Source: Bacteroidaceae bacterium
GTDB taxonomy: Bacteria > Bacteroidota > Bacteroidia > Bacteroidales > Bacteroidaceae
DNA: 64,000 bases
Assembly: GCA_016286165.1 (NCBI GenBank)
Contig: JAEESE010000001.1
Coordinates: 186,001-250,000, forward strand
Direction of reading: 5' to 3'
The notes under the pieces were generated by a model. It did not search any database. It had not been told where the DNA came from and saw only the letters and a program-made list of their open reading frames with translations. Positions 3,691-63,808 of the stretch are shown here, piece after piece. Position 1 is the first letter of the stretch. Each line of letters begins with the position of its first letter. A program made the position numbers and the translations under genes.

Positions 3691-3822
3691 ATTTCGCATT
3701 TATTTTCGACCTGTCGAAAGCGAGGATGCGACGCGTTGGATTGGCACATTCGAAGCGTTGAATTGGCGTATGCGACGGGTTGAATTGGCGTATGCGACGG
3801 GTTGCGTATTGGGCGGTGGCGG
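3691..3822. repeat. 22-bp tandem array in the gap between HU-like and R-M genes
   Basis: Five to six consecutive 22-bp units. The two at 3757-3778 and 3779-3800 are identical (GTTGAATTGGCGTATGCGAC followed by GG). Units at 3713, 3735 and 3801 are diverged but keep the same start (GTYG) and exact 22-bp spacing; the segment at 3691 fits the register more weakly. Confidence 0.85.
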
Positions 3823-7700: not shown

Positions 7701-7705
7701 AGACT

Positions 7706-8839: not shown

Positions 8840-8870
8840 TAGTAAGCAAGTGTTTTATCACATTCGCCGA

Positions 8871-8959
8871 GGTGACCCTAATCGTTATTTGCTGGTGACC
8901 CTAACGTATAATTGAGGTGACCCCAACCTCTACAAAAGGCGACCCTTTCCACGTCTTGT
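8871..8959. repeat. Iteron-like direct repeats GGTGACCC at 22-23 bp spacing
   Basis: GGTGACCC(T/C) starts at 8871, 8894 and 8916, and a variant GGCGACCC at 8938, spaced 23, 22 and 22 bp. Two copies extend to GGTGACCCTAA. The spacing places the motif on one face of the helix. The last copy forms the left arm of the following terminator hairpin. The site lies between the operon end and the DUF3987 promoter. Confidence 0.8.
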
Positions 8960-8979: not shown

Positions 8980-9020
8980 AAGTTCTTGATTTATTGCTTG
9001 ATAGTTAAGGCAATAATGAT

Positions 9021-11609: not shown

Positions 11610-11986
11610 CAAATGACAGATGACAGTTTCGATGTGAACAGCCACAAATGGTACTACACGAGTCCAAGCACCCAATAACGAGAAGGTTGTCATCGTGAAG
11701 GTTGGGGAGAGGACTGTGAAGGTGGCAAAGTAGTAAAGTCACTTGTAGACAGGAATAATTCGCATTCGTTAGAAGTGTCGGCAGAACTGGATACTTTCTG
11801 ACAATAGGCAACAACCAACCAAATCCGCCGGGCACATCTTCACCTGATGTCTCCGGCGGACTGCATTCTGTTAATTGCTATCGTCGGTTTCCGCAGACCT
11901 GCGAATAAAGGGGATTTCTTTTGGCGGTTCGGAAAAAAATGTGTAATTTTGTGCCATCAATAGGAACATTTTAATCATTTACTGTT
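11610..11986. other. Intergenic gap after the DUF3987 gene
   Basis: 377 bp with no convincing gene. It begins with a TGACAAATGACAGATGACAG motif (the same unit as the 3.8-4.0 kb inverted repeat). At 11825-11859 there is a hairpin CCGCCGG...ACATC-TTCACC-TGATGT...CCGGCGG without a T-tract. A 21-codon ATG ORF at 11613 looks fortuitous. The promoter of the next gene closes the gap. Confidence 0.6.
11944..11951 (+). promoter_or_regulatory. Promoter -7 box (TAATTTTG) for the tandem hydrolase gene
   Basis: TAATTTTG with TTG at 11921-11923 (20-nt spacing), 35 bp before the start codon. Confidence 0.7.
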
Positions 11987-13777
11987 ATGAAACGGAACCG
12001 TTTATTCTTCTTTATTCTATCTTCATTCTTCGCTCTGTTCGGCGTCGGCTCAGCTTATGCACAGCCTGCAGGCGGTTTCGGCGGATGGCAAAGGCCGCAG
12101 GTTAATCTTCAGACTTCGCAGCAATGGAAGGATGTGAACTATGCCGGCGACGATCAGGCGTTCCACACCTGCGATATCTATCTGCCTAAGCAGGAACGGG
12201 CGAGCTACCCCGTGGTGATTCATATCTACGGCAGCGCATGGTTCAGCAACAACAGCAAGGGTGCTGCCGACCTGGGCACCATCGTCAACGCGTTGCTGAA
12301 TGCCGGCTACGCCGTGGTGTGCCCCAACCACCGCTCGAGCATGGACGCCAAATGGCCTGCCCAGATTCACGACATCAAGGCGGTAATCCGTTTTGTGCGG
12401 GGTGAGGCCGCTAAGTATAAGTTCGACCCGTCGTTCGTCGCCACCAGCGGCTTCTCGTCGGGCGGTCACCTATCGTCGATGGCTGCCGTGACCAGCGGCA
12501 CGAAGACAACTAAGGTGGGCTCGGTGGACATCGACCTCGAAGGTTCATTAGGTAATTTCACTAACCAGAGCAGCAGGGTGAATGCCGCCTGCGACTGGAG
12601 CGGACCTATCGACCTGACGGCAATGGACTGCGGCGAGCACATGACGATGGGCGAGAACAGCCCCGAGGATGTGCTGCTGAACTCCAAGCTTGCCGACGAG
12701 CCCGACAAATACCGCAGCCTGAGTGCCACAAGCTATATCGATGCCAACGACCCGCCCGTGATCATCTTCCACGGCGAGAAGGATAACGTGGTGCCGTGCT
12801 GTCAGGGCAAGGCGTTCTTCGAGCAGCTGAAGGCTGCCGGCGTGAAGACGGAAGCTACCTTCGTGCCCGAGGGCGGTCATGGCATGGGAATGTATGGCGA
12901 CGAGAACCTCCAGAAGATGGTTAGCTTCCTTGATGCTGCACGCATGGGCAGAAGCCGCGTGCTGGAGGATGGCGGCACGGGGGCTTACAAGGCTATCATG
13001 AAGGAGGACAGCTCGCTGCCCGAGCATACCATCTTGGTGCCGCAGGACCTCACGCCGTTCTCGCAGAAGAAGCCGCTGCCCGTGCTGGTATGGGGCAACG
13101 GGGCGTGTGCCAACTCGCCGTTCGAGCATGTTAATTTCCTCAACGAGATAGCGTCGCACGGATATATCGTGCTGGCCACGGGCTTTATTCCGATGAACGA
13201 TGAGTGGTACCGCGGTCCTATGTCGCGCTCGGAGCAACAGATAGAGTCTATTGACTGGATAATAGCCCAGAACGCCAATCCCGCTTCGCCTTACTATCAG
13301 AAGATTGACGTGAAGAATATTTGTGTGGCAGGCATGTCGTGCGGCGGATTGCAGTCGCTCTACAACTGCGCCGACCCGCGTATCAAGACGTTGATGATCT
13401 GCAACAGCGGACTCTTCAACCGCGATAATGCCAATACCGCCGTAGGCGGAATGCCGATGCCTCCCAAGGAGAAGCTCAACGAGATTCACACGCCTATCAT
13501 CTATATCCTTGGCGGCGAAAAGGACATAGCCTACGGCAACGGCATGGATGATTTCCATCGCATCAACCATGTGCCGGCATGCGCAGCCAACTTCCCCGTA
13601 GGCCACGGCGGCACATATCGTCAGCCTCATGGCGGCGAGTTCACGGTAGTGGCCCTGGCTTGGCTCGACTGGCAACTGAAGGGCGACAAGCAGGCTGCCA
13701 AAATGTTCAAGGGCAAGGATTGCCTGCTGTCGAAGCGTCAGGGGTGGACGATTGAGAAGAACGGGAAGATGAAGTGA
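11987..13777 (+). CDS. Secreted two-domain alpha/beta hydrolase
   Basis: 596 aa with a clear signal peptide (MKRNRLFFFILSSFFALFGVGSAYAQ). There are two alpha/beta-hydrolase domains in tandem. Domain 1 (about 45-315) has the nucleophile elbow GFSSG (Ser157), acid HGEKDNVV and GGHGMG as the His. Domain 2 (about 335-580) has GMSCGG (Ser451), LGGEKDIAYG and GHGGTY. Domain 1 resembles carbohydrate-esterase/lipase-like enzymes; domain 2 resembles chlorophyllase/PAF-acetylhydrolase-like folds with an extended GNGACANSP segment. The likely role is ester hydrolysis in the periplasm or outside the cell, perhaps deacylating dietary or host glycans. The exact substrate cannot be read from sequence. The AGCS symporter gene follows 6 bp later, so they may be cotranscribed. 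Confidence 0.8.
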   Translation: MKRNRLFFFILSSFFALFGVGSAYAQPAGGFGGWQRPQVNLQTSQQWKDVNYAGDDQAFHTCDIYLPKQERASYPVVIHIYGSAWFSNNSKGAADLGTIVNALLNAGYAVVCPNHRSSMDAKWPAQIHDIKAVIRFVRGEAAKYKFDPSFVATSGFSSGGHLSSMAAVTSGTKTTKVGSVDIDLEGSLGNFTNQSSRVNAACDWSGPIDLTAMDCGEHMTMGENSPEDVLLNSKLADEPDKYRSLSATSYIDANDPPVIIFHGEKDNVVPCCQGKAFFEQLKAAGVKTEATFVPEGGHGMGMYGDENLQKMVSFLDAARMGRSRVLEDGGTGAYKAIMKEDSSLPEHTILVPQDLTPFSQKKPLPVLVWGNGACANSPFEHVNFLNEIASHGYIVLATGFIPMNDEWYRGPMSRSEQQIESIDWIIAQNANPASPYYQKIDVKNICVAGMSCGGLQSLYNCADPRIKTLMICNSGLFNRDNANTAVGGMPMPPKEKLNEIHTPIIYILGGEKDIAYGNGMDDFHRINHVPACAANFPVGHGGTYRQPHGGEFTVVALAWLDWQLKGDKQAAKMFKGKDCLLSKRQGWTIEKNGKMK

Positions 13778-13783
13778 GCCCCA

Positions 13784-15382
13784 ATGATGGAATTATTGAC
13801 TCAGGTGAGCGACGCCCTATGGGCTTATGTGCTGATAGGTGTGCTCTTGGGCTGCGGAATATGGTTCACGTGGCGCACTCGTTTTGTGCAGTTTCGCATG
13901 CTGGGCGAGATGGTGCGTTTGCTTGCCGACAGCAGCGTGGCCAAGGAACGCCAGCATAAACATATCTCCAGCTTTCAGGCCTTTGCCGTTTCTGTGGCCA
14001 CACGCGTAGGCACCGGCAACCTGGCAGGCGTAGCCACAGCTATTGCCGTGGGCGGTCCGGGTGCCGTGTTCTGGATGTGGATGATAGCGCTCATCGGAGC
14101 AGCCACGGCGTTTGTGGAATCGACGCTCGGTCAGCTGTTCAAGCAGCCGCATGCCGACTCGTTCATCGGCGGCCCGGCATATTATATCCGTCGCGGCTTG
14201 CATTCGCGTTGGATGTCGGTTTTGTTTGCCGTGCTGCTGACCGTCACCTTCGGACTGTCGTACAATTCCATTCAGAGCAACACCATCTGCAGCGCCATGA
14301 ACGAGGCCTTCGGATGGTCGCCGCTGAGTGTGGGCATAGCGTTGACGCTGCTCTCGCTCGTCATCATATTCGGCGGCATTCAACGTATAGCACGAGTGAG
14401 CTCCGTGCTCGTGCCCATCATGGCCATCGGCTATTTCGTGCTGGCGATAGTGGTGGTGGCGATGAACGTGGAGCATATTCCATACGTGCTGAAGGTAATC
14501 GTGAAGGACGCCTTCGGCTTTGAACAGGTGGCAGGAGGCGGTCTCGGCGCCACGATGCTGATGGGCATCAAACGCGGCCTGTTCTCAAACGAGGCAGGCG
14601 AGGGTAGTGCGCCTAATGTGGCGGCCACGGCGGCGGTGTCGCATCCGGTCAAACAGGGCTTGATACAGGCATTGGGCGTGTTCACCGACACCTTGCTGGT
14701 GTGCTCGTGCACGGCGTTCATCATTCTGCTGAGCGGGCTCTACACAACGCCCGAGCTCAACGGCATAGCCCTCACGCAGGCTTCCTTGCAGCAAGAGGTG
14801 GGCTCTTGGGGACCATTCTTTATAGCCCTGGCCATCCTCCTCTTCGCCTTCTCAAGCATAATAGGCAATTACTACTACGGCGAAGCCAATGTCCGTTTCC
14901 TGATATTGCACTCTAAACTCGCGAAAGATAACCATTCTTCTAATATAGAAGAGGAGAAAGGTTGTTCATATCTTTCTGAAGCGGAGCAAGTTCCTACTTC
15001 TCACCCCGAAGCGGAGCAAGTTCCTACTTCTCACCCCGAAGCGGAGCAAGTTCCTACTTCTCACCCCGAAGCGGAGCAAGTTCCTAAGTGGAAGAGGCAC
15101 ATGAATGCCCCAACGCTCATTCAGGCTGTTTATCGCCTTTTCTCGGGAGGTGTGTTTGTGATGCTCGGAGCCGTGGCTTCCCTCGATTTCGTGTGGAGCT
15201 TAGGCGACCTTTGCATGGCGCTGCTCACGGGCTGCAACCTCATAGCCATCATTGCCCTCGGCCACTATGCCTTCCGCCTCCTCGATGATTATCGCAGTCA
15301 GAAGCGGCGAGGCATTCAAGAACCCGTCTTCGACCCGCATTTGCTGCCTGAGATTGAGGATGAGCTGGTAGGGTGGAAGTAG
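13784..15382 (+). CDS. Alanine/glycine:cation symporter family (AGCS) transporter
   Basis: 532 aa, multi-spanning inner-membrane protein of the AGCS type, importing alanine or glycine with Na+ or H+. Signatures include TRVGTGNLAGVATAIAVGGPGAVFWMW near the N-terminus, GLSYNSIQSNTIC, and GLFSNEAGEGSAPNVAATA, the family's characteristic loop. Between late helices the loop contains an in-frame 30-bp direct repeat coding three copies of EAEQVPTSHP plus a partial copy (14978-15086), absent from typical family members as far as I recall. It sits between IGNYYYGEANVRFL and the final two helices, so probably in a tolerant loop. A strong terminator follows at 15442. Confidence 0.88.
   Translation: MMELLTQVSDALWAYVLIGVLLGCGIWFTWRTRFVQFRMLGEMVRLLADSSVAKERQHKHISSFQAFAVSVATRVGTGNLAGVATAIAVGGPGAVFWMWMIALIGAATAFVESTLGQLFKQPHADSFIGGPAYYIRRGLHSRWMSVLFAVLLTVTFGLSYNSIQSNTICSAMNEAFGWSPLSVGIALTLLSLVIIFGGIQRIARVSSVLVPIMAIGYFVLAIVVVAMNVEHIPYVLKVIVKDAFGFEQVAGGGLGATMLMGIKRGLFSNEAGEGSAPNVAATAAVSHPVKQGLIQALGVFTDTLLVCSCTAFIILLSGLYTTPELNGIALTQASLQQEVGSWGPFFIALAILLFAFSSIIGNYYYGEANVRFLILHSKLAKDNHSSNIEEEKGCSYLSEAEQVPTSHPEAEQVPTSHPEAEQVPTSHPEAEQVPKWKRHMNAPTLIQAVYRLFSGGVFVMLGAVASLDFVWSLGDLCMALLTGCNLIAIIALGHYAFRLLDDYRSQKRRGIQEPVFDPHLLPEIEDELVGWK
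14978..15086 (+). repeat. 30-bp in-frame tandem repeat inside the AGCS gene
   Basis: Three exact 30-bp copies (starting GAAGCGGAGCAAGTTCC) plus 19 bp of a fourth. The 30-bp unit is a multiple of three, so copy-number change would keep the frame. The core GAAGCGGAGCA also occurs in the intergenic repeat near 58840. Confidence 0.95.
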
Positions 15383-15441
15383 TGATTATTCACGGTAGAG
15401 CAGGACTTAGTGTTATGAAAACCGAGGAACAGAATAAAAGC

Positions 15442-15493
15442 AAATGATATAGAAGTTGGCACAAAGCCCCGCTATATCATTTCCTTTTTTTTT
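15442..15493 (+). terminator. Terminator of the hydrolase-AGCS unit
   Basis: An 11-bp stem AAATGATATAG / CTATATCATTT with a 19-nt loop, followed by CC and nine T, 60 bp after the AGCS stop. Confidence 0.85.
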
Positions 15494-15532
15494 ACAAAAT
15501 AATGAATAATAGAACAAGCTGTCTGAACGAAA

Positions 15533-15560
15533 AAGTGGACTCCTCTGTAGGAATCCACTT
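15533..15560 (-). terminator. Second hairpin downstream of tRNA-Glu (minus strand)
   Basis: AAGTGGATTCCT...AGGAGTCCACTT followed on the minus strand by TTTTT. It may back up the first terminator at 15598. Confidence 0.6.
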
Positions 15561-15597
15561 ATATAGCGAAGAAGGATGTAACGAAGAAGGATATTAC

Positions 15598-15629
15598 GAA
15601 AAAGGGAACCTCTTTCGAGATTCCCCTTT
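15598..15629 (-). terminator. Terminator of tRNA-Glu
   Basis: On the minus strand AAAGGGGAATC-TCGAAAGA-GGTTCCCTTTTTC, a stem with T-tract starting two bases after the tRNA 3' end. Confidence 0.75.
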
Positions 15630-15630
15630 G

Positions 15631-15702
15631 TAGCGCCTACGGGAATCGAACCCGTGTTCCATGCGTGAGAGGCATGTGTCCTAGCCGCTAGACGAAAGCG
15701 CC
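15631..15702 (-). tRNA. tRNA-Glu (anticodon CTC)
   Basis: 72 nt with acceptor GGCGCTT/AGGCGCT, D-arm containing CTAGCGGCTAG, anticodon stem CATGC/GCATG with loop CTCTCAC (anticodon CTC, reading GAG) and T-arm ACGGG-TTCGATT-CCCGT. CCA is not encoded. It has its own promoter at 15786-15793 and terminator at 15598-15629. Confidence 0.92.
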
Positions 15703-15785
15703 AGAAGATTGCTTTTTGTTGAAAAGAAAGCAGTCGAAAACGTGCTGAAAAGCGGTTCTGAGCAGCTCTTTTTCTCAAATGCGGT

Positions 15786-15793
15786 GCAAAGGT
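15786..15793 (-). promoter_or_regulatory. Promoter -7 box (TACCTTTG) for tRNA-Glu
   Basis: TACCTTTG on the minus strand with TTTG (15815-15818) at the expected distance. Its -33 element falls inside the back-to-back promoter of the fdtA-like gene. Confidence 0.75.
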
Positions 15794-15837
15794 AGATGTT
15801 TTTTTTCATTCCCACAAACTTTTTCCGAAAAAAAATA

Positions 15838-15845
15838 TATCTTTG
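15838..15845 (+). promoter_or_regulatory. Promoter -7 box (TATCTTTG) for the fdtA-like gene
   Basis: TATCTTTG 21 bp before the start codon at 15867. It is divergent from and partly overlaps the tRNA-Glu promoter region. Confidence 0.7.
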
Positions 15846-15866
15846 CGGCAAATTAGTAATTAGTTT

Positions 15867-16295
15867 ATGAACGAAGAACTGTTTCCGAAAGGTGTAGAGG
15901 TGGTGGAACTGCCTCATTATGTTGACTCAAGAGGGGCGTTGAGCGTGGCGGATGGTTTCGACTCTCTGCCTTTCGATGTGAAGCGCCTGTTTTGGATTAC
16001 CGACGTGCCTTGCGATGCTTCGCGCGGCGGCCATGCCCATTGGAGCTGTCATGAGTTGGTGTTTGCTGTGGCCGGTAGCTTTGAGATAACTATCGACGAC
16101 GGTGATGTGAGCAGGGTGTTTCAGGTTGAAGACCCACACAAAGGCATCGTAGTACCAGCCGGAACATGGTGCGAGCTTAATAACTTCGCCCCGGGTACGG
16201 TGTGTCTGGTACTGGCTTCAGAGGCCTATGCCCCCGACGGTTATGTCAACGACAAAACAGAGTGGAGGAAGAAAATAGCAACAATGAAAGATTGA
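15867..16295 (+). CDS. FdtA/QdtA-type cupin, dTDP-4-keto-6-deoxyhexose 3,4-ketoisomerase-like
   Basis: 142 aa, single cupin domain. The segment DASRGGHAHWSCHELVFAVAGSFEI holds the conserved RGxHAH residues of sugar 3,4-ketoisomerases (FdtA, QdtA, TylM3-like), and LNNFAPGTVCLVLASEAY matches the C-terminal half. The family turns a dTDP-4-keto-6-deoxyhexose into its 3-keto isomer for transamination. The next gene, 4 bp downstream, contains the matching aminotransferase domain. Together they suggest production of a dTDP-3-amino-3,6-dideoxyhexose for a surface glycan. Whether the product is Fuc3N-like or Qui3N-like cannot be told here. Confidence 0.85.
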   Translation: MNEELFPKGVEVVELPHYVDSRGALSVADGFDSLPFDVKRLFWITDVPCDASRGGHAHWSCHELVFAVAGSFEITIDDGDVSRVFQVEDPHKGIVVPAGTWCELNNFAPGTVCLVLASEAYAPDGYVNDKTEWRKKIATMKD

Positions 16296-16299
16296 TATT

Positions 16300-18414
16300 A
16301 TGAACATCGTACCTTATACTAATCAGCTGAAGGACGAGTGGGACTCTTTCGTGCGACTCTCCAAGAACGGAACATTCCTGTTTGAACGCGGTTTCATGGA
16401 TTATCATTCCGACCGCTTCGACGACTGTTCGCTGATGATCTACGAAGACAACAGTCTGCTGGCGTTACTGCCAGCCAACTGGGATGAGGCATCGCGTACG
16501 GTGTACACGCATCAGGGACTTACCTACGGCGGTTTGGTGTACACGACCGATGCCACGGAGATGCAGGTGATACGCTGCCTTCAAGGGGCTCTGCTATGGT
16601 ATCTGGATTTCCTGAACGCAGCGAACTTCGTGTATAAACCTGTGCCTTACATTTACACCGATTCACCATCGCAGGAGGATCTGTATGCTTTGTTCAGGGC
16701 CGGGGCCAGACTGCATTCGCGCGGAGTGAGCAGCGTGGTGGATATCAACAACCCTTTGCGTATGCGTAAGCTACGTTTGCGTGGTGCCAAGAAGGCCATC
16801 GACAACGGCCTCTACATAGACAGGATGACCGACGGCGACTGGGCAACGCTGGAGGACTATTGGCGTTTGCTGACAGCTGTGCTTGAAGAACATCATCAGG
16901 TGAAGCCAGTACATACTGTAGAGGAGATGAAGTTGCTGATGACTCGTTTCCCGTTGAATATCAAGCTCTTTCTGGTACGTTGTGAACGTGAGATAGTGGC
17001 TGGATGCCTTGTCTTTATCACAAAGAGAGTGGCTCATATCCAGTATATCGCCTCGGGTGACAAGGGAAGGGAGAAGGGCGCCTTGGACTTGCTGTTCCGT
17101 CATCTCATCAACGAGCGTTTCAAGTCGATGGCTTATGTAGATTTCGGAATCTCAACAGAATTCGGCGGCCAGGTGCTGAACGAGGGCCTTATCTTCCAAA
17201 AGGAAGGTTTTGGCGGACGGGCAGTTTGCTACGACAGCTACGAGCTTGAGATTGACCGCTCGGTGGTGGAGCAGATGGCACCCCTGGATGAGGTGATAGA
17301 TCAGACTATAAAATTTCTCGACCTCAAGAAGATAAACGCAAGTTTTGAGCCGTTGCTGTCGGACGAGATAACGCGCGTGGTGCACAGCGGCTGGTATCTG
17401 CAGGGCAATGCCGTGAAGCGCTTCGAGACTGCCTTTGCCGAGTACATCGGTGTTCGACATTGCGTGCTCTGTGGTAATGGAATGGAGGCTCTAACCTTGA
17501 TTTTCAGGGCGCTGAAGCAGCTTCATCATTGGGATGACGATGCCGAGGTGATAGTGCCGGCAAATACGTTCATAGCTACTATTCTCGCTGTGAAAGAGGC
17601 TGGTTTGAAGCCCGTGCTGTGTGAGCCTTCGTTGTCAGACTACCTTATTGATGTTGATGCTTTGCCAGGGTGTGTGAGTGAACATACTGTTGCCGTGGTG
17701 CCCGTGCATTTGTATGGGCGTGTGTGCAGGATGACGGAGATAAACGCATTTGCCGAAGCTCATAACTTGCTTGTCGTGGAGGATGCAGCGCAGGCACATG
17801 GCGCCATGATGGGCGAGTTGAAGGCCGGTCATTTAGGCGTAGCTGCCGGCTTTAGTTTTTATCCTGCCAAGAATCTTGGTGCTCTGGGTGATTCCGGTTG
17901 TGTGACGACCGATGATGATGCACTTGCCAACTTAGTGCGTATGATGGGCAACTACGGCTCTTCGCAGAAATATCATCATGAGGTGCCTGGCATGAATTCG
18001 CGTACCGATGAGATTCAGGCTGCAGCACTATGGGTGAAGCTGCCGCGGCTGGATGCCGACAACGAACGTCGCCACTGGATAGCTGAAGCTTATGACGCAC
18101 ACATCGATAATCCGTTGATAACGAAACCGTTGCTCGGTGATGATAAGCGTGCTAACGTGTTCTATGTATATCCTATCCGCACAAGCTACCGTGAGCAGCT
18201 GATAAAATGGTTGCGTGAGCACCATATAGAAACGGTAATACATTATCCCGTGGCTCCGCACAAACAACCTGCCTTGCAAGAGTTCGCGGAGATGAAGCTG
18301 CCTGTGACGGAACAGATTCACAATGAGATACTTAGTCTGCCTATATCCCCGCTTCTGACGGAAAAGGAGGTGGCGCGTGTTATAGCCGCTGTGAACCAGT
18401 TTAATCCGAGTTGA
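16300..18414 (+). CDS. Fusion: GNAT/FemAB-like acyltransferase + DegT/DnrJ/EryC1 (FdtB-like) aminotransferase
   Basis: 704 aa in two parts. Residues about 1-325 are a GNAT/FemAB-like transferase (GTFLFERGFMDYHSDRFDDCSL; later VAGCLVFITKRVAHIQYIASG and LLFRHLINERF). Residues about 335-704 are a complete sugar 3-aminotransferase starting FLDLKKIN, with GNGMEALTLI, VPVHLYGR, VVEDAAQAHGA, the PLP-lysine motif SFYPAKNLGALGDSG and the PGMNSRTDEIQAA stretch. With the upstream FdtA-like gene it would transaminate the 3-keto sugar; the N-terminal domain may then acylate the new amine, replacing a separate FdtC-type enzyme. The ORF is continuous with no frameshift. Its end overlaps the convergent glycosyltransferase gene by 14 bp. 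Confidence 0.85.
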   Translation: MNIVPYTNQLKDEWDSFVRLSKNGTFLFERGFMDYHSDRFDDCSLMIYEDNSLLALLPANWDEASRTVYTHQGLTYGGLVYTTDATEMQVIRCLQGALLWYLDFLNAANFVYKPVPYIYTDSPSQEDLYALFRAGARLHSRGVSSVVDINNPLRMRKLRLRGAKKAIDNGLYIDRMTDGDWATLEDYWRLLTAVLEEHHQVKPVHTVEEMKLLMTRFPLNIKLFLVRCEREIVAGCLVFITKRVAHIQYIASGDKGREKGALDLLFRHLINERFKSMAYVDFGISTEFGGQVLNEGLIFQKEGFGGRAVCYDSYELEIDRSVVEQMAPLDEVIDQTIKFLDLKKINASFEPLLSDEITRVVHSGWYLQGNAVKRFETAFAEYIGVRHCVLCGNGMEALTLIFRALKQLHHWDDDAEVIVPANTFIATILAVKEAGLKPVLCEPSLSDYLIDVDALPGCVSEHTVAVVPVHLYGRVCRMTEINAFAEAHNLLVVEDAAQAHGAMMGELKAGHLGVAAGFSFYPAKNLGALGDSGCVTTDDDALANLVRMMGNYGSSQKYHHEVPGMNSRTDEIQAAALWVKLPRLDADNERRHWIAEAYDAHIDNPLITKPLLGDDKRANVFYVYPIRTSYREQLIKWLREHHIETVIHYPVAPHKQPALQEFAEMKLPVTEQIHNEILSLPISPLLTEKEVARVIAAVNQFNPS

Positions 18415-19366
18415 GAAATAGCTTAAGGAGGCGCAAACCGGGCTTCGTGTTTGCCAAAGTGGCAAAGGCGAGGTATTTACATCCGTAGGCTTTCTTGTAC
18501 GGCAGCGGATATAAGCCTTGTTGTGTGAGCCACAGACGTTCTTCGGCGGCTATAGTGTGCCAGGGAAGTTCGCGGCAAATCCTGATGATATAATCTACGG
18601 TGAGGAAGGTGCGTTTGCGCTGTAGTCCTCGCTTGTCGCGATTGTCGCTATTGTCGGCAATCATACGGCTTATCTCTTTGAGCATGAGGCGATGGTGCAG
18701 GCGCAGTTGTTCCTTGTGCCGGGCATCGTCTGTGTGGACGGTTGATGTCTGACGCTGGCAGTAAGCGTAAACGGTATAGTCTGTTTGCACCACTGACGCT
18801 GCAGCATGATGGAGCTTGACGGTAAAGGCACAATCCTCGAGGAAAACGTTTTCTGGAAACGTGATATTATTCTCTGTCGCCAATAGCCGACGGAAGAGGT
18901 AGCACACGGGCGAATCAGGCAGGTGGTGAAGACGCATGAATTCATCACCGCTGAAGGGATGGCTTATGTGGTCCGTAATGGCCGGGGTATTGTGGATGGT
19001 GATACCGCTTATAAGGAAACGGACGATATCACTATGGCTGCTGAGAGCGATGTCAAGGACGCGTGGCAAGGAGTGGGGTAGCAGGTAGTCGTCGGCATCG
19101 AGGAATAGTATGTATTCACCCTGTGCCTGCTGAAGACCGTAGTTGCGTGCTGCTCCCTGACGTGCATGCGGGCGACAATAGAGGCGTATGTTTGCGCGGT
19201 GGAACTCTTGCACTACAGCCATGGGTGGCGTGTCGGAACCATCGTCGACGACAATGATTTCCCACTCGAAACGGGTTTCGAGAAACTGATCTGCGGCACT
19301 CGCTATGGCTCGTTGGAGCATCGCCGGTTCGAGGTTGTAGTGCGGTATGATGATTGAAATGTCCAC
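18401..19366 (-). CDS. Glycosyltransferase family 2 protein
   Basis: 321 aa, GT-A fold. The N-terminus DISIIIPHYNLEP, nucleotide-binding VVDDGSDTPP, GAARNYGLQQAQGEYILFLDADDY (DxD-like) and the ENVFLEDCAFTVKLHHAA acidic motif are standard GT2 elements. It adds a sugar from a nucleotide donor to a growing surface glycan on the cytoplasmic side of the membrane. The start codon is GTG (19366); no earlier ATG fits. It is the last gene of a compact minus-strand cluster of four glycosyltransferases, separated by 26 bp from the previous one. Confidence 0.88.
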   Translation of the reverse strand: MDISIIIPHYNLEPAMLQRAIASAADQFLETRFEWEIIVVDDGSDTPPMAVVQEFHRANIRLYCRPHARQGAARNYGLQQAQGEYILFLDADDYLLPHSLPRVLDIALSSHSDIVRFLISGITIHNTPAITDHISHPFSGDEFMRLHHLPDSPVCYLFRRLLATENNITFPENVFLEDCAFTVKLHHAAASVVQTDYTVYAYCQRQTSTVHTDDARHKEQLRLHHRLMLKEISRMIADNSDNRDKRGLQRKRTFLTVDYIIRICRELPWHTIAAEERLWLTQQGLYPLPYKKAYGCKYLAFATLANTKPGLRLLKLFLNSD

Positions 19367-19392
19367 AGTATGTATATGGTGGTTTTGACGCG

Positions 19393-20376
19393 TTAACGGA
19401 ATAGCCTTAAGTAGCGATTGACATTAAGGATGGCGAGCAACGTGGCTTTGGCTTTAGCTTTTGCTGATAACGTTAAAGTGCAGATATCTAATAATTTGGG
19501 CTTATGGTGCTCAATAATTACTTTAAGACCTTGGTAACGATTGCTATCCAAAGACAGGCGCTCGTGGCGGGATGCCCTGAGGCAGTCAATGAGCACATTT
19601 GATGCCGATATGGTGAAGAGGCACCAGTCGTGGTGGCTGATGTCGCTATGCTGCTCTGCCGCTGTGCCGATACGTTCGAGTGCCGAGACCTGTGAATCGA
19701 GGTCTTTCCATTTAGCTTGCACGGTGATTGATTCGTTGCGCCAACGGTATAGGTAATTGGCTGTGGGGTGTGCGAGGAAGGCTATGGCCTGGCAGTGGTT
19801 GAGCACATCGGTGATGATATGCAGATCCTCGAAGGTGACACCAACGGGGAAACGGACTTCCTTGAAGAGATGGCGGCGGTACACTTTCAACTGTGAATAG
19901 GCGCGCAGATAGCCCTGATGGTGAAACCATGCAGTAAAGACTTGGTCGCGCCCCTGCACGAGGTCTGTGGTGGTAGGTGCGTGACGCACGGCATCTGCTG
20001 TGTTGAAACGTGCCATCAATGGTAGTTCTACTAGGTCCAGGTCGGGACAGCTGTCGAACAGCGAGAGAGCTGCTTCGAAATAGTCGGGTGACACCAGGTC
20101 GTCGCTATCGACAAATGCGATGAACTGTCCGGTGGCAATGTCGAGGCCGGCGTTTCGCGCAGCGCTCAGTCCTTGGTTGGATTGATGAATAACCCTGATT
20201 CGATTGTCTTGCCCGGCATATTCATCGCATAGGGCAGGGCAATTGTCGGGTGAGCCGTCGTCGACCAATATCACTTCCAGGTTGGTGTATGTCTGCGATA
20301 ATACGCTGTCCACACATTCGTGCAGATAGTGTTCAACGCGATAGACGGGTATTATGACGGACAGCAGAGGCTTCAT
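19393..20376 (-). CDS. Glycosyltransferase family 2 protein
   Basis: 327 aa. GT2 hallmarks: LLSVIIPVYRVEHYLHECVDSVLSQTY, VILVDDGSPDNCPALCDEYA, GLSAARNAGLDIATGQFIAFVDSDD and a downstream PVGVTFEDLHIITDVL catalytic-base motif. It begins 2 bp after the stop of the preceding GT2 gene, indicating close cotranslation. Acceptor and linkage are not predictable from sequence. Confidence 0.9.
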   Translation of the reverse strand: MKPLLSVIIPVYRVEHYLHECVDSVLSQTYTNLEVILVDDGSPDNCPALCDEYAGQDNRIRVIHQSNQGLSAARNAGLDIATGQFIAFVDSDDLVSPDYFEAALSLFDSCPDLDLVELPLMARFNTADAVRHAPTTTDLVQGRDQVFTAWFHHQGYLRAYSQLKVYRRHLFKEVRFPVGVTFEDLHIITDVLNHCQAIAFLAHPTANYLYRWRNESITVQAKWKDLDSQVSALERIGTAAEQHSDISHHDWCLFTISASNVLIDCLRASRHERLSLDSNRYQGLKVIIEHHKPKLLDICTLTLSAKAKAKATLLAILNVNRYLRLFR

Positions 20377-37521: not shown

Positions 37522-37600
37522 TACCTTTGCAACGTGTTTTTCATGGTATTAGATTTAAGGTTAATGGAAGGAGGGTTGTCGTGAGACAACCCCCTTTTTT
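37522..37600 (+). ncRNA. Candidate small RNA with its own promoter and terminator
   Basis: TACCTTTG at 37522-37529 with TTTG 19 nt upstream (37499-37502) is a strong promoter. A short non-coding stretch with CATGGTATTAGATTTAAGG follows, ending in a textbook terminator (GGGTTGTC-GTGA-GACAACCC then CCTTTTTT, 37573-37600). The product would be about 65-70 nt. The only ATG-started frames are trivial. It sits between rlmI and the pepP leader array and may be a free sRNA or an attenuated leader. Confidence 0.6.
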
Positions 37601-37615
37601 GTTTGATACCTAAGA

Positions 37616-37813
37616 CTTTCTGAGCAGACTACTATGTCTAACAGAACAGATTAGAATGTCTAACAGAACAGACTGCTATGTCTGATAAGACAGACTAATA
37701 ATACTAACGAAACATACTATCAAGGCTAACTAATCTGATTACTAATACTAACGAAACATACAACTTATGCTAACTAAACATAAAACTAATACTAACTAAA
37801 CAGAATACAATGA
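37616..37813 (+). repeat. Nine exact 22-bp units directly upstream of pepP
   Basis: Units start at 37616, 37638, 37660, 37682, 37704, 37726, 37748, 37770 and 37792. Most begin CTAAC and contain AACA(G/T)A; copies diverge but spacing never changes. The last unit includes the ATG of pepP (37810). The array occupies the entire region between the sRNA terminator and the start codon. Confidence 0.9.
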
Positions 37814-39207
37814 ATACTATCAAGAAAGAAAGCTACCTGCGGCGCCGAGCTAAGCTTAGGGCTGATATGGGCAGCGGCCTGCTTCTTTTCCTCGGGAACT
37901 CGGAGGTTGGCATGAACTATGCAGATAATACATATCGTTTTCGTCAGGACTCTTCGTTCCTCTATTTCTTCGGGCTCGACGATGCTGGCCTGGCAGCTGT
38001 CATAGATATCGATGAAGACCGCGAGATCGTGTTCGGCAACGAGCTGACAATCGACGATATCGTTTGGACCGGCACTATGCCCACGCTGCACGAGCGGGCT
38101 GTATCTTATGGTATCACGGACACGAGGTCGATGAGCGAACTGAAGGGATACCTCGACAATGCCCGCCGCAAGGGACAGCCTATTCATTTCCTGCCTCCGT
38201 ATCGTGGTGACCATCAGATATGGTTGTGGGAACTGTTAGGTCTGAACCCCAAGGAGCAGGCAGTACAGGTCTCAACCCGTCTGGTGAAGGCTATCGTCAG
38301 TCAGCGTATCTACAAGGACGAGGAGGAAATAGCCATCATAGAGGAGAGTGTGGACATCAGCACCCGCATGCACCTGGCAGCTTATCGTAAAGTGCGCCCC
38401 GGCGTTCACGAAGCAGAGGTGGCTGCTGCTGTGGAAGAAGTGGCTTGCCGGGGAGGCAACACTCTGGCTTTCCCCACTATAGCCACGGTACAAGGTCAGG
38501 TGTTGCACAACCATGGCTTCATCCATGAGCTGCGCGAGGGCGACATCTTCCTGCTTGATGCAGGCGCTGAAACGCGCATGCACTATGCCGGCGACCTCTC
38601 GTCGTCAATGCCTGTTGGAAGGCGTTTCACCGAACGTCAGGAGACAATCTACACGATTCATCTCGAGAGTTTCCGTGCTGCAGTAGAGACATTGCGGCCT
38701 GGCGTCCCGTTCCGCGATGCTCATCTGGCAGCAGCCACTAAGATTTGCGAGGGAATGAAGGCGCTCGGACTGATGCAGGGCGACCCAGTAGAGGCCGCTC
38801 ACATCGGCGCCTACGCCCTGTTCTTCCCTTGCGGATTAGGTCATATGATGGGCCTTGATGTACACAACATGGAAAATCTCGGCGAGGAATACGTAGGCTA
38901 TGAGGACGGACAAGTGAAGTCCAAGCAGTTTGGTTTCAAGTCGTTGCGTTTGGCCCGACCGCTTGAACCAGGCTTCGTGTTCACCGTAGAGCCCGGCATT
39001 TACTTCATTCCCGAACTCATCGACAAGTGGGAAGCCGAGCATCAGTTTACCGATTTCATTCGTTACGACCGCCTCGGACCTTGGCGCGATTTCACCGGTC
39101 TGCGCAACGAACTCGACTATGTCATCACAGCCGATGGTGTGCGACAGCTCGGCACCATACCCAAGCCGATGACTCTTGAAGAGGTTTATGCTGCCAAGGA
39201 AGGGTAG
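37810..39207 (+). CDS. pepP: Xaa-Pro aminopeptidase (aminopeptidase P, M24B)
   Basis: 465 aa with an AMP_N domain first (KKESYLRRRAKLRADMGSGLLLFLGNSEVGMNYADNTYRFRQDSSFLYFFG) and the pita-bread metallopeptidase after about 170. Ligand motifs include FLLDAGAETRMHYAGDLSSS (two Asp), GLGHMMGLDVHNME (His), GFVFTVEPGIYF (Glu) and FTGLRNELDYVIT (Glu). It removes N-terminal residues preceding proline in the cytoplasm. Its translation start lies in the last unit of a 22-bp repeat array and no standard promoter or strong RBS is visible within the array. Confidence 0.93.
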   Translation: MNTIKKESYLRRRAKLRADMGSGLLLFLGNSEVGMNYADNTYRFRQDSSFLYFFGLDDAGLAAVIDIDEDREIVFGNELTIDDIVWTGTMPTLHERAVSYGITDTRSMSELKGYLDNARRKGQPIHFLPPYRGDHQIWLWELLGLNPKEQAVQVSTRLVKAIVSQRIYKDEEEIAIIEESVDISTRMHLAAYRKVRPGVHEAEVAAAVEEVACRGGNTLAFPTIATVQGQVLHNHGFIHELREGDIFLLDAGAETRMHYAGDLSSSMPVGRRFTERQETIYTIHLESFRAAVETLRPGVPFRDAHLAAATKICEGMKALGLMQGDPVEAAHIGAYALFFPCGLGHMMGLDVHNMENLGEEYVGYEDGQVKSKQFGFKSLRLARPLEPGFVFTVEPGIYFIPELIDKWEAEHQFTDFIRYDRLGPWRDFTGLRNELDYVITADGVRQLGTIPKPMTLEEVYAAKEG

Positions 39208-39943: not shown

Positions 39944-39951
39944 CAAAGGTA
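39944..39951 (-). promoter_or_regulatory. Promoter -7 box for the reverse rubrerythrin gene
   Basis: TACCTTTG on the minus strand with CAAA (=TTTG) 19 nt upstream at 39971-39974. Confidence 0.7.
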
Positions 39952-40024
39952 TGATAAAAAGAAGTCAAAGCAAAACTTTTTATGTTTTTTTTAAGAAAAA
40001 TGTGCTGATATCAACGATTATCAC

Positions 40025-40032
40025 TATCTTTG
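40025..40032 (+). promoter_or_regulatory. Promoter -7 box for nadE
   Basis: TATCTTTG 27 bp before the ATG at 40059. Because it lies inside the longer ORF, it argues against the upstream start at 39951. Confidence 0.65.
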
Positions 40033-40058
40033 TCGGCGAAACACTAAGCCAAAAGGAA

Positions 40059-41993
40059 ATGAACTACGGATTTGTAAAGATGGCCGCTGCCGTACCGGAG
40101 GTGCGCGTGGCCGACCCAAAGTTTAACGTTCAAGCTATAGAAAACCTTGTCCTGCAGGCCGAAGGCCGCGGCGTGGAAGTGATCTGTTTCCCAGAGTTGT
40201 CGCTCACTGGTTACAGTTGTGGCGACCTGTTTTGCCAGCAGTTGTTGTTGGACGAGGCGGAGATGTCGCTGATTCACCTTATGAATATCTCGCGTTCGCT
40301 GGACATCATCTCAATAGTAGGTCTGCCCGTACCGTACAAAGGCGCTATATACAACTGTGCCGCCGTGCTGCAGAAAGGCAAGATCCTGGGCCTTGTGCCT
40401 AAGACGTACTTGCCCAATTACCGCGAGTTCTACGAGGGACGATGGTTTGCAAGCGCAACGCAGTTGAGCAGCGAGGCAGAGGTGTGGATGTGCGGCCAAT
40501 TGGTGAAGCTCTCTTCACGTCTGCTTTTCCGCACACCGACGTGCACATTCGGCGTTGAGCTCTGCGAGGATCTCTGGGCCCCATTACCGCCTTCAACCAA
40601 TATGGCTCTGGGCGGAGCAGAGATTATCTTCAACCTCAGTGCCGACAATGATGCGGTGGGCAAGCGTGCTTACCTCACACAAATGCTGAAACAGCAGAGC
40701 TCACGCACTAAATGCGGATATGTCTATAGCGCTGCGGGCTTCGGTGAGAGCACTCAGGACACCGTGTACAGTGGCAAGGCGTTCATCCTCGAGAGCGGCA
40801 AGATCCTTGCCCAGGCGCGTCCGCACTCCCTGAAACCGCAGATTATTGAAAGCGAGATAGATGTAGAGCGAATCAGGACAGACAGGCGTATCAATACAAC
40901 CTTCACCTCGAATGCCGCCTATGCCGCACGCTATGGCATGCAACGATACAATGTCATTGACACGGCTCTAATCGGTCAGCATCCCTTCGAAATCACACGA
41001 ACATTTGATGCCTCGCCTTTCGTTCCCACCGGCACCGACCTTGATGAACGTTGTCAGGAAATCTTCGCTATACAGGCCGAAGGACTTGCCAAACGCCTGA
41101 CGCACACATGTACATCAACTGTCGTTCTGGGCATCTCGGGCGGTCTGGATTCTACGTTGGCCCTGTTGGTTGCCGTCAAAGCCTTCGATATTTTGAAGCT
41201 GGACCGCCGTGGTATAGTAGGTGTTACTATGCCCGGTTTCGGCACTACCGACCGCACTTACAATAATGCCGTTGACTTGATGCACGCTTTGGGCATCACC
41301 ATGCAGGAGATAAATATCAGCAAGGCTGTGATGCAGCATTTTGACGACATCGACCATGACCCGCGTGTGCAGGACGTTACCTATGAGAATGCTCAGGCGC
41401 GCGAGCGTACTCAGATCTTGATGGATTTGGCCAATCAGCTCGAAGGTATGGTCATCGGTACCGGCGACCTTTCGGAACTGGCTCTTGGATGGTGCACTTA
41501 CAACGGCGACCATATGGCCATGTACGGCGTGAATGCAGGCGTGCCCAAGACTCTTGTGCGTCATCTCGTGAGATGGGTGGCCGAGCAGGAGGAAGATGCA
41601 GCGTCGAAGATACTGTTGGATATCGTTGACACACCAATCAGTCCCGAGCTCATCCCTGCCGACGAGAATGGGGAGATCCGTCAGAAGACCGAGGATCTTG
41701 TTGGGCCATACGAGCTCCACGACTTCTTCCTCTATTACGTTATGCGCTGGGGCTTCCGTCCTACAAAGATTTATTTCCTTGCCACGAAAGCTTTCGAAGG
41801 CCGTTACAATGGCGACACGATAAAGAAATGGCTCACAACCTTCTATCGCCGTTTCTTCTCGCAGCAGTTCAAACGGTCATGCATGCCCGACGGTCCCAAG
41901 GTCGGTTCCGTAAGCCTCTCGCCACGTGGCGATTGGCGCATGCCAAGCGATGCCAGCCGCGAAGCTTGGCTGGCAGAGTGTGAAGCGCTGTAG
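40059..41993 (+). CDS. nadE: Glutamine-dependent NAD+ synthetase
   Basis: 644 aa from the ATG at 40059, preceded by AAAAGGA; the track's longer start covers the promoter. The N-terminal nitrilase-type glutaminase has its triad in CFPELSLTGYSCGD (Glu), VPKTYLPNYREFYEGRWF (Lys) and FGVELCEDLWAP (Cys). The C-terminal synthetase domain has the PP-loop LGISGGLDSTLALLVA and QARERTQILMDLANQ. It converts deamido-NAD+ to NAD+ using glutamine-derived ammonia, in the cytoplasm. A 22-bp repeat array starts 43 bp after its stop. Confidence 0.93.
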   Translation: MNYGFVKMAAAVPEVRVADPKFNVQAIENLVLQAEGRGVEVICFPELSLTGYSCGDLFCQQLLLDEAEMSLIHLMNISRSLDIISIVGLPVPYKGAIYNCAAVLQKGKILGLVPKTYLPNYREFYEGRWFASATQLSSEAEVWMCGQLVKLSSRLLFRTPTCTFGVELCEDLWAPLPPSTNMALGGAEIIFNLSADNDAVGKRAYLTQMLKQQSSRTKCGYVYSAAGFGESTQDTVYSGKAFILESGKILAQARPHSLKPQIIESEIDVERIRTDRRINTTFTSNAAYAARYGMQRYNVIDTALIGQHPFEITRTFDASPFVPTGTDLDERCQEIFAIQAEGLAKRLTHTCTSTVVLGISGGLDSTLALLVAVKAFDILKLDRRGIVGVTMPGFGTTDRTYNNAVDLMHALGITMQEINISKAVMQHFDDIDHDPRVQDVTYENAQARERTQILMDLANQLEGMVIGTGDLSELALGWCTYNGDHMAMYGVNAGVPKTLVRHLVRWVAEQEEDAASKILLDIVDTPISPELIPADENGEIRQKTEDLVGPYELHDFFLYYVMRWGFRPTKIYFLATKAFEGRYNGDTIKKWLTTFYRRFFSQQFKRSCMPDGPKVGSVSLSPRGDWRMPSDASREAWLAECEAL

Positions 41994-42035
41994 CGTTTAG
42001 AGTTTTAATTGTTTGATACTGATAAAACAAAAAAC

Positions 42036-42167
42036 ACGTCCGGACGTACAAGTTATTACGTCCGGACGTGTTGCTTTGTATGACCGTACGTGATGCTTTG
42101 TATGACCGTACGTGATGCTTTGTATGACCGTACGTGATGCTTTGTATGACCGTACGTGTTGAAGCTA
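42036..42167. repeat. Six 22-bp units with palindromic cores between convergent nadE and msrC
   Basis: Units begin at 42036, 42058, 42080, 42102, 42124 and 42146. The first two contain the palindrome ACGTCCGGACGT; the next four contain ACCGTACGTG with CGTACG. Three consecutive units are identical (ATGACCGTACGTGATGCTTT + GT). Confidence 0.95.
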
Positions 42168-42193
42168 TAGTCTCGTCAACAAAAACGTTTGCT

Positions 42194-42685
42194 TTAGTCA
42201 ATAACCGTTTCCATCGCGGCAACGATGGCTTGGAGGCCTTGGCTGTCCTCCTCGTCGAAGGCACCAAGGCTGTCGCTGTCTATGTCCAGAACGGCAATCA
42301 CGGCGCCAGACTTGTCGTGAACGGGAAGGACTATCTCCGAGCGTGACGCAGAGCTGCAGGCTATGTGACCTGGGAACGCGTCCACGTCGGGAACTACTAT
42401 TGTCTCACCTTTTGCCCAACAGGTGCCGCAAACGCCACGGCCAAGACGGATACGAGTGCAGGCTGCAGAGCCTTGGAAAGGGCCCAAATGCAACCACTCC
42501 TTGTCATGGACGAGGTAGAATCCTACCCAGAAGAAGCCGAAAGCCTCGCGCAGCACGGCTGATGTATTGGCCATAGTGCTGATGAGGTCAGTTTCACCTT
42601 CTATGTAATATTTGTAATCATCGAGCAGGGCTGCATAACGCTCGCTCTTGCTCAGCTTTCCCGGATAAACAAATGTTGGCTCCAT
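42194..42685 (-). CDS. msrC: Free methionine-(R)-sulfoxide reductase (GAF domain, fRMsr)
   Basis: 163 aa, one GAF domain. The three conserved cysteines of fRMsr are present in ACTRIRLGRGVCGTCWAKG and GHIACSSASRSEIVLPV, and FFWVGFYLV and VLDIDSDSLGAFDEED also match. It reduces free Met-R-sulfoxide, an oxidative-stress repair role. It follows the C69 dipeptidase gene after a 22-bp repeat array that fills the intergenic space, so it may be on the same transcript or have a promoter in the array. Confidence 0.87.
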   Translation of the reverse strand: MEPTFVYPGKLSKSERYAALLDDYKYYIEGETDLISTMANTSAVLREAFGFFWVGFYLVHDKEWLHLGPFQGSAACTRIRLGRGVCGTCWAKGETIVVPDVDAFPGHIACSSASRSEIVLPVHDKSGAVIAVLDIDSDSLGAFDEEDSQGLQAIVAAMETVID

Positions 42686-42693: not shown

Positions 42694-42935
42694 TTGACAA
42701 GTTGAATGTTTAACGTTGACCGTTCGTGTTGCTTTGTTTGACCGCACGTGTTGCACTATATGACCGTACTTGTAGGGTGGATCACCAAAGGTGGGACACC
42801 TCATAAGCCCGTACTTGTGAATTACTAAGTAGGCCTAAAGCGGCTATAAAGTAGGGATAAAGCGGTTATAAAGTAGGGATAAAGCGGCTATTAAGTAGGG
42901 ATAAAGCGGCTACTTATCGGGACTGAATAGCCATT
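42694..42935. repeat. Eleven-unit 22-bp lattice with changing sequence family
   Basis: Register starts every 22 bp from 42694 to 42914. Units 42716-42781 belong to a TTGACCGTTCGTGTTGC-like family (as at 42.1 kb). Units 42826-42913 belong to a different family (AAAGTAGGGATAAAGCGGYT + AT). The units between are diverged but in register. The lattice runs from just upstream of msrC to the stop codon of the C69 gene. Confidence 0.9.
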
Positions 42936-50788: not shown

Positions 50789-50908
50789 AGAAGACCTTTA
50801 CCATTTCATTCGCCGTTTTCGCTGCTCATTATGGCGAAGCAAAACTCTCTCCCGAGAGAGCGGGGAGAGGCTCTTAAACTATAATCCTTAAACTTTAATC
50901 CCTAAACT

Positions 50909-53848
<2,940 letters not shown>

Positions 53849-53924
53849 TTAATTTGTTGGTATTTAGTTGATTCCTTCTTGGTTGAAATTTTTATTTTCA
53901 CTTTTAACTCCTTAATTTTTAGCT

Positions 53925-54012
53925 CCTTCCATATAAAGTTCACTCTTCTTGGAAGTGACCATTTTCATCCTTCCATATAGAGTCCACTCTTCTTGGAAGT
54001 GACCATTCTCTC
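53925..54012. repeat. Two 44-bp (2 x 22-bp) repeats upstream of lacZ
   Basis: Alternating 22-bp blocks A (CCTTCCATATAAAGTTCACT..) and B (TCTTGGAAGTGACCATTTTC..) occur as A-B-A-B at 53925, 53947, 53969 and 53991, with few differences. Blocks A and B carry complementary CTTCC/GGAAG and TTCACT/AGTGAC pieces, so each A-B pair can form a hairpin. Confidence 0.88.
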
Positions 54013-62584: not shown

Positions 62585-63667
62585 ATGATGAACATAAAAG
62601 TCGGAATAATAGGCTTCGGCCGAATGGGACGATACTATCTAAAGGAGTTTCAGAGCAACCCATACTACGAAGTCGCCTACGTTTGCGATATCGACGAGGA
62701 ATGCAGAGCACTGGCCCGCAAGATGGCTCCCGAGGCGAAGATTGTTGCCGATGAACAGCAGATCTTTGAGGACCCGCAAGTGCAGGTGGTGGCGCTCTGC
62801 GCCATGGCCGACTCTCGCCCCGAGCAGATACGCAAGGCGGTAGCGGCGGGCAAGCATATCATAGCCGAGAAACCTCTTGCCGACACGATAGAGCGCGAGT
62901 GGGAGATGGTGGAGCTGGTGGAGAATGCTCCCGTGCAAAGCACGGTGAACATGTATCTGCAGAACGCGTGGTACCACCATGAGATGCGCAACGCCATTGA
63001 CCGCGGCGAGCTAGGCGAATTGGCCATAATGCGCATCTGCCACATGACGCCCGGACTGGCGCCTGGCGAAGGGCACGAGGCCGAGGGACCGTCGTTCCAC
63101 GACTGCGGTATGCACTATGTGAACCTTGCGCGCTGGTATGCGCGTAGTGAATATAAGACGTGGCATGCCCAAGGCATGCGCATGTGGGCTTGGAAGGACC
63201 CGTGGTGGCTCCAGGTGCACGGCACGTTCGACAACGGCATCGTCTACGATATCACCCAGGGCTTCGTCTACGGCCAGTTGTCGAAGGAACAGACGCATAA
63301 CTCATACGTGGAGCTCATCGGCACGAAGGGCTTCTGCCGCATGACGCACGACTTCAAGACGGCGGTAGTGGATATCCACGGCGTGACGGAAACGCAGCAT
63401 ATCGAGCGACCCTTCGGCGGCAAGAACATCGACCGCCTGATAGAAGAGATGGCATCGAGCATAAAGACGGGGGTGCGCGACAGGCACATGCCGTCGTTCC
63501 GTGACTCTGCCATAGCCTCGCAAAACGCTTGGAACATGCTCGAGGACGCACGCCAGCACGACCTGCCGGCGATAGGCACTCACGAGGAGCTCGAGGAGAT
63601 ATGGGAGTATCGCCGCAACCTGAAGGACGGCTACGGACTGCTGCCGAGGAATAATAAGAATGTTTGA
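62585..63667 (+). CDS. Gfo/Idh/MocA family oxidoreductase
   Basis: 360 aa. The N-terminal Rossmann fold MNIKVGIIGFGRMGRYYLKEF and the AEKPLADTIEREWEMVE motif with the conserved EKP lysine mark an NAD(P)-dependent sugar or inositol dehydrogenase. The C-terminal alpha/beta domain includes GPSFHDCGMHYVNLARWYA, where the D(C)GxH part supplies the catalytic His. No signal peptide, so cytoplasmic. It is followed by a second member of the family (63878), this one exported, suggesting a sugar or cyclitol degradation locus. Either ATG 62585 or 62588 may start it. Confidence 0.9.
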   Translation: MMNIKVGIIGFGRMGRYYLKEFQSNPYYEVAYVCDIDEECRALARKMAPEAKIVADEQQIFEDPQVQVVALCAMADSRPEQIRKAVAAGKHIIAEKPLADTIEREWEMVELVENAPVQSTVNMYLQNAWYHHEMRNAIDRGELGELAIMRICHMTPGLAPGEGHEAEGPSFHDCGMHYVNLARWYARSEYKTWHAQGMRMWAWKDPWWLQVHGTFDNGIVYDITQGFVYGQLSKEQTHNSYVELIGTKGFCRMTHDFKTAVVDIHGVTETQHIERPFGGKNIDRLIEEMASSIKTGVRDRHMPSFRDSAIASQNAWNMLEDARQHDLPAIGTHEELEEIWEYRRNLKDGYGLLPRNNKNV

Positions 63668-63808
63668 TAGTTGACAGTTGATAGTTGACAGTTGATAGTT
63701 GACAGTTGATAGTTGACAGTTGACGGTTGATAGTTGATAGTTGATAGTTGACAGTTGACGGTTGAAACCTGAAACTTGAAACCTGAAACTTGAAACCTGA
63801 AACCTGAA
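63664..63808. repeat. TTGACAG/TTGATAG and AACCTGAAACTTG tandem arrays
   Basis: About fourteen 7-bp units alternate TTGATAG and TTGACAG (a 14-bp super-repeat), followed by five ~7-bp AACCTGA/AACTTGA units. They fill the space between two oxidoreductase genes. Confidence 0.93.

Follow-up and report, generated by a model that had tools for sequence, protein, structure and literature searches.

Genes and repeats at the locus

The region at positions 42694–42935 of the window (the whole 64-kb stretch of DNA analysed, from a rumen bacterium) is the gap between two genes of the minus strand, one for a GAF-domain protein (42194..42685; Pfam PF13185/PF01590), probably fRMsr-like, and the other for a peptidase of family C69 (42934..44844; Pfam). 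The NAD synthase gene nadE (39951..41993, plus strand; PF02540/PF00795) is convergent with the GAF gene, which adjoins the arrays on both of its sides. The initial annotation had described the gap as eleven consecutive 22-bp units in which the sequence family changes and the register does not. Successive 22-mers counted from 42694 agree at 9, 17, 12, 5, 6, 7, 18, 21, 20, 9 and 7 of 22 positions, the null for lag-22 comparison in the window being 5.6 ± 2.3 matches of 22, and the three middle steps (5, 6 and 7 matches) are at chance level.

What was found instead is two separate arrays. Array A (42716..42773; TRF; direct-repeat family D1/D3) consists of three 22-bp units (TTGACCGTTCGTGTTGCTTTGT and following) with lag-22 identities of 17 and 12 of 22, and array B (42826..42913; TRF periods 22 and 11) of four units (AAAGTAGGGATAAAGCGGCTAT) with identities of 18, 21 and 20 of 22. 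Array B is non-palindromic and homogeneous over the whole unit, with an 11-bp sub-period visible in half-offset matches of 13–14 of 22. Between the arrays lie module H, a hairpin-forming 27-bp quasi-palindrome that is not a 22-bp unit (GGGTGGATCACCAAAGGTGGGACACCT, 42775..42801), and an isolated A-like unit (42805..42818; 13/22 match at 42805), which is displaced by 1 bp from the lattice of array A, the copies of CCGTACTTGT being 45 and not 44 apart. A literal eleven-unit lattice is ruled out by the chance-level middle steps and by this displaced unit. Two unrelated abutting 22-bp arrays can always be cut on one grid, and since families A and B are unrelated, the constancy of the register is not assessable at this locus.

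Module H is possibly a separate small element. It was matched in nine rows at eight places genome-wide, with none in the control, and the quasi-palindrome AGGTGGATCACC(ACG)GGTGGGACACCT occurs, besides 42775–42801 of the window, at C12:30786, C12:74919, C12:121810, C14:109823, C25:44650, C31:29915 and C36:48286 of the same assembly. Its copies adjoin other 22-bp arrays at several places (L018, L019, L020), and complementary arms flank some of them; a sequence resembling module H also abuts the array in the relative L105. In the relatives L103–L105, just a few bases separate the C69 and GAF genes, which makes the 249-bp array region a lineage-specific gain and rules out an array kept at the orthologous locus. 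The arrays of L039 lie downstream of a GAF gene, between convergent genes.

Other arrays in the window

The initial annotation had listed arrays of the same period at 3.7, 8.9, 37.6, 42.0 and 53.9 kb, and the first four were recovered. In the convergent nadE/GAF intergenic region, the array at 42033..42165 (also delimited as 42050–42170; TRF; RNA fold z = −7.7) opens with an inverted-repeat pair of palindromic units (42033–42072), followed by near-identical 22-bp units; its inverted repeat I2 has 16-bp arms with 100% complementarity, and the stretch 42078–42159 is made of whole-unit tandem duplications, as is array B. Two 22-bp arrays (CAGACTAYTATGTCTAACAGAA; CTAACTAAACATAAAACTAATA) abut at 37610..37818 (TRF), the CTAACTAAACATAAAACTAATA array having a higher-order period of 44 bp. 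The array at 3722..3816 (ATGCGACGCGTTGAAT) has a dyad core (p = 0.015), and that at 8893..8946 (GAGGTGACCCTAACGTATAATT; TRF) is weak and short, with a 22/23-bp period. The remaining site, 53924–54007, is a single 44-bp duplication (95% match) with dissimilar 22-bp halves and inverted CTTCCA/TGGAAG arms. Family A does have a sequence link to the other arrays: its units are degenerate members of a GAMCGKTC palindrome family that is dispersed in the genome.

Seven bases before the double array at 37.6 kb, positions 37534–37603 match the Rfam family FopS (family of paralogous sRNAs, RF04319). Elsewhere in the window, a 12-bp unit (ACTCCCACTTCT) is repeated 14 times in a long low-complexity array (1675–1841).

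The 22-bp period in the genome and across taxa

The genome-wide excess at lag 22, for which the initial annotation had called as a check, was observed. The 442 kb sampled from this genome (the window and 20 further stretches, four of which had been picked for holding a hit) contained 24 arrays at lag 22, compared with 2, 0, 0, 1 and 0 at lags 19, 20, 23, 25 and 26; lags 44 and 66 follow 22. Markov-3 random sequence gave zero arrays at any lag, which rules out a compositional or shuffle artefact. Shorter periods (6–9 bp and their multiples) are also present in the sample: heptamer and octamer arrays are plentiful beside the 22-bp ones (lags 7, 8, 9 and multiples; for example, window 63664–63765 and 50873–50929).

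The frequency of lag-22 arrays per Mb, estimated from samples of genomes in which several stretches had been chosen near hits, and from MAG assemblies, which collapse repeats, was 45 in the sampled stretches of this genome, 73 in the same genus, 32 in other rumen Bacteroidaceae, 25 in Phocaeicola/Bacteroides (an array of Phocaeicola coprophilus, L143, is built on CGACACGTTCGTGACG) and 34 in Paraprevotella (2 arrays). Outside the family it fell to 2 for Cytophagales and 6 for the order's other families, and neighbouring lags gave 0–2.5 arrays per Mb in every group sampled. In 387 kb from 20 other Bacteroidaceae genera, 12 arrays were found at lag 22, coming from 6 of the 20 stretches, with none at lags 19 and 23, two at lag 20 and one at lag 25. 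Among the groups sampled, the lag-22 excess is thus confined to Bacteroidaceae. To this extent the proposed genome-wide pitch stands, as a sharp lag-22 peak in that family, with hundreds of sites whose spacings are exact multiples of 22.

Anatomy and genomic position of the arrays

Many arrays are rows of dyad-symmetric sites of about 14 bp separated by 8-bp spacers. A dyad-symmetric core was detected by column permutation in 30 of the 76 Bacteroidaceae arrays at p ≤ 0.05 (3.8 expected) and in 17 of 76 at p ≤ 0.01; about 60% of the arrays, array B included, have no significant dyad. In the dyad arrays, the core is more conserved than the spacer (0.86 vs 0.66), the corresponding values for the other arrays being 0.81 vs 0.78 (p = 1e−5). 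The statement that only the spacing is conserved therefore overlooked the main regularity, a two-fold-symmetric core present in many units.

The arrays are intergenic, often just past gene ends. None of the 76 lies inside a called gene, though about 85% of the sequence is coding, and 25 of 70 lie between convergent genes, a class with 17% of the intergenic bases; the gene calls come from our own simple, crude caller, and the divergent class (notably seven arrays of L072) may hide missed genes.

Lineage-specific palindromes

The palindrome sequence differs by lineage, each species examined having its own. In the whole of the present genome, GAMCGKTC-N{2,32}-GAMCGKTC occurs as 54 pairs, compared with 0 for the backwards control, and among the pairs listed a single one has a step of 21, every other being spaced by exactly 22. 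This genome contains several different palindrome families, and one protein alone would not account for them. In the relative G016, GAACCATGGTTC occurs as nine pairs with a distance of 22 or 44 and with 10-bp spacers that are unrelated to one another; no such pairs occur in 19 other genomes. In G024, the motif CGCAN(CACG/CGTG)NTGCG is spaced at 22/44/66 with one exception at 36, and 0 of 48 sites lie in genes.

The clearest case is G012, where AATGGTTAACCATT has 632 sites at ≤3 mismatches vs 100 in the control. At ≤2 mismatches there are 142 sites, 3 of them inside genes, and pair distances are only 22/44/66 (73/47/21), a count made in 420 kb of sampled DNA with many stretches picked for hits. 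Exact AAWGGTTAACCWTT occurs at 192 sites in G012, 189 in the sister genome G023 and 0–1 in each of 78 other congeneric genomes. A motif-blind count of identical palindromic 8-mers, a test which the G024 motif escapes, has peaks at 22/44/66 in G012, G023 and G016, weaker ones in the present genome and none in Cytophagales or the other families.

Most G012 elements have four slots of 14 bp + 8 bp, all in frame, filled in the orders C-C-C-C, A-C-C-a, A-B-B-a, B-B-B-B, A-C-a-a and others. A lattice in which the sequence family changes in register, as had been claimed for 42694–42935, thus does exist in this relative. The G012 spacers are patterned around a G/C centre, so that symmetry centres recur every ~11 bp. 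G012 and G023 are 90–95% identical, and at 17 orthologous loci the register is gap-free in most cases, even where element identity is 71–72%. The length difference at one locus is exactly 66 bp (three units), and G023 also has a few spacings shifted by 1 bp (43, 45, 65, 67).

Recognition at the level of DNA or RNA

The strongest competitor of a DNA-level explanation is that the arrays are multi-hairpin bidirectional intrinsic terminators, for which the RNA matters and 22 nt is the length of a single hairpin in the tandem row, gene conversion keeping the units alike. It agrees with the position at gene 3′ ends and the over-representation between convergent genes, and the A-run/palindrome/T-run arrangement found there is that of bidirectional intrinsic terminators. 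The U-run expected on the transcript exit side of such a hairpin was found in G012 as a statistical tendency, T-runs outside the elements being richer on the side that transcription reaches (3.64 vs 2.27 T in 6 nt, p = 4e−4). The palindromic elements also fold strongly as RNA (z between −8.7 and −3.7), whereas the folds of arrays A and B are no better than those of shuffles (z of +1.3 and −0.03).

Self-complementarity, however, is not maintained at the variable slot positions. Positions 3/12 of the G012 slots are AA in 49 cases, TT in 33, TA in 37 and AT in 13 (50 slots paired and 82 AA or TT), and positions 5/10 of G024 are complementary in 13 of 48 slots vs 17.4 expected if independent. No clear covariation between slots was seen. 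A conserved RNA hairpin was rejected on these grounds, stem complementarity not being kept by compensating changes in either genome, and a known RNA family was rejected because an Rfam search over the arrays gave no described family. Moreover, one hairpin of any sequence suffices for intrinsic termination, with no need of an exact 22-bp step, and some G012 elements lie between divergent genes, the two examined there having no T-runs. We consider this explanation possible but rather doubtful. The unkept complementarity, together with a pitch that is exact and spacers that are random in G016, favours the view that a protein of two-fold symmetry recognises the DNA duplex; other 22-bp palindrome sets do fold well as RNA, so that DNA-level recognition is not proved.

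Relation to mobile elements and neutral repeats

The arrays could alternatively be a miniature mobile element of MITE or REP/RAYT type, with a body of four 22-bp palindromes spread by a transposase. The lineage-restricted burst in the sister pair G012/G023 is of the kind that such spread would leave, some G012 elements (not all) carry terminal AAAACATCTAC ... GTAGATGTTTT inverted repeats, and one locus in G023 lacks the element together with some flank. Visual inspection of that single empty site revealed no target duplication, however, and the free mixing of families among slots of one frame, like the occurrence of unrelated sequences with the same pitch in different lineages, argues against it.

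The class with which such an origin would be compared, the repetitive extragenic palindromes (REP/BIME elements) with their RAYT transposases (Di Nocera et al. 2013, PMC3733652), is the nearest described kind, being extragenic, palindromic and species-specific. REP/BIME elements are likewise short and present in many copies, often past gene ends, and their proposed roles in termination and DNA topology are similar to those considered here. They differ from the present arrays in that the latter have a strict 22-bp lattice, four slots in the clearest genome and families mixed in frame. The Y1 (RAYT) transposase PF01797 had no match in the present genome, G012, G024 or G005, while G003 gave a single match slightly above the cut-off and the one match in G016 fell short of it; its absence from this genome and from G012 led us to reject a REP/RAYT origin. 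A GTAG/CGTC end tag common to the motifs of this genome, G012, G016 and G024 was not found, GTAG occurring only in the A-type end slot of G012. As neither the transposase nor a common end tag was found, the arrays are not filed as REP/BIME members and only resemble them in position and copy number. Taken together, spread as a mobile element seems to us unlikely.

Neutral minisatellites, arising because the polymerase for mechanistic reasons slips preferentially by 22 bp and serving no selected function, would suit the whole-unit duplications of array B and 42078–42159 and the 66-bp difference between the sisters, but they are disfavoured and improbable, since slippage does not give identical cores with random spacers (G016) or dyad symmetry, the lineage-wide motifs stand at ~190 exact sites with no arrays inside genes, and the neighbouring periods of 19, 20, 23, 25 and 26 bp are nearly absent.

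A protein lattice as the preferred reading

The interpretation that we prefer, and to which we would give an even chance, is that the arrays are REP/BIME-like extragenic elements forming a phased lattice of operator-like sites, probably protein-bound and partly co-opted as bidirectional terminators. They would constitute an extragenic repeat system of Bacteroidaceae, with short rows past gene ends that number four slots in the clearest genome and 2–7 elsewhere. A putative symmetric DNA-binding protein would line up its dimers next to one another along a single face of the helix, at intervals of two turns. Such a lattice would account for the fixed 22-bp step, the symmetry of site and spacer, the near absence of 21- and 23-bp steps and the tolerance of random spacers. 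Of the two mechanisms offered by the initial annotation, nothing points to a templating enzyme, and a DNA-binding protein with a 22-bp pitch is suggested by these features.

Outward T-runs occur in many elements, which may double as bidirectional intrinsic terminators, as a secondary use. Slippage or unequal exchange between slots would alter the length by whole steps of 22 bp, like the 66-bp difference between the sisters, and local amplification could yield whole-unit arrays such as B beside lattice-type arrays such as A, and thereby abutting families; the non-palindromic arrays would then be lattice units that were locally duplicated or have decayed. The pitch would outlast the sequence, hence the unrelated arrays with a common period. 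The copying of one motif across a genome needs some spreading or homogenising process beyond the protein-lattice account. In a broader and more tentative version, a putative polymer-forming symmetric protein of fast-changing specificity would mark gene ends along the whole chromosome in Bacteroidaceae, the lineages re-writing the motif and keeping positions and pitch.

Comparison with other repeat systems and significance

The iterons of plasmid R6K are 22 bp long. Iterons and cooperative operators of the BldC type resemble the present arrays in that their protein sites repeat in phase on a single face of the DNA, with a 22-bp step in one case, but they are origin- or operator-specific, whereas the arrays lie past the ends of many chromosomal genes, their motif is specific to the lineage and their binder is only putative. 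The feature of such operator and iteron arrays, in which symmetric or direct sites keep phase and pitch while the spacers vary more freely, was found here as well. Direct repeats have been described for BldC (PMC5859096).

The nearest case in Bacteroidales is the BrickBuilt MITE of Porphyromonas gingivalis, a 23-bp minisatellite of one sequence with a leader and a tail, known from one species (PMC4596501). It is likewise an intergenic array in a Bacteroidales genome with about two helical turns per unit, but the present arrays have a 22-bp period, many sequences, symmetric units and no common leader or tail. A literature search with most subscription journals outside its coverage gave no report of a 22-bp lattice in Bacteroidaceae or of 22-bp intergenic repeats in Bacteroidetes, and the arrays look like a family of repeated elements not yet described, in which geometry is kept while sequence changes.

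From species to species the layout of a 14-bp symmetric site and an 8-bp spacer, 22 bp in all, is retained and the sequence is replaced genome-wide, which raises the question of what recognises the pitch and by what means considerably more than a hundred sites can be altered in concert. The lattice may account for the way in which genes are punctuated in uncultured Bacteroidaceae of gut and rumen, and its motifs supply lineage-specific sequence tags.

Dense clusters of arrays were also encountered. About ten different 22-bp arrays lie within 4 kb of L072 (G005:C86; 13683–15098 and 17203–17597), partly inside a 2-kb stretch without called genes. In L251, a stretch from another genus (g25), six 22-bp arrays built on AAGCGGCAGCACTT and TTCCGGAA occupy 13 kb (6498–19431) and follow the same 14 + 8 plan.
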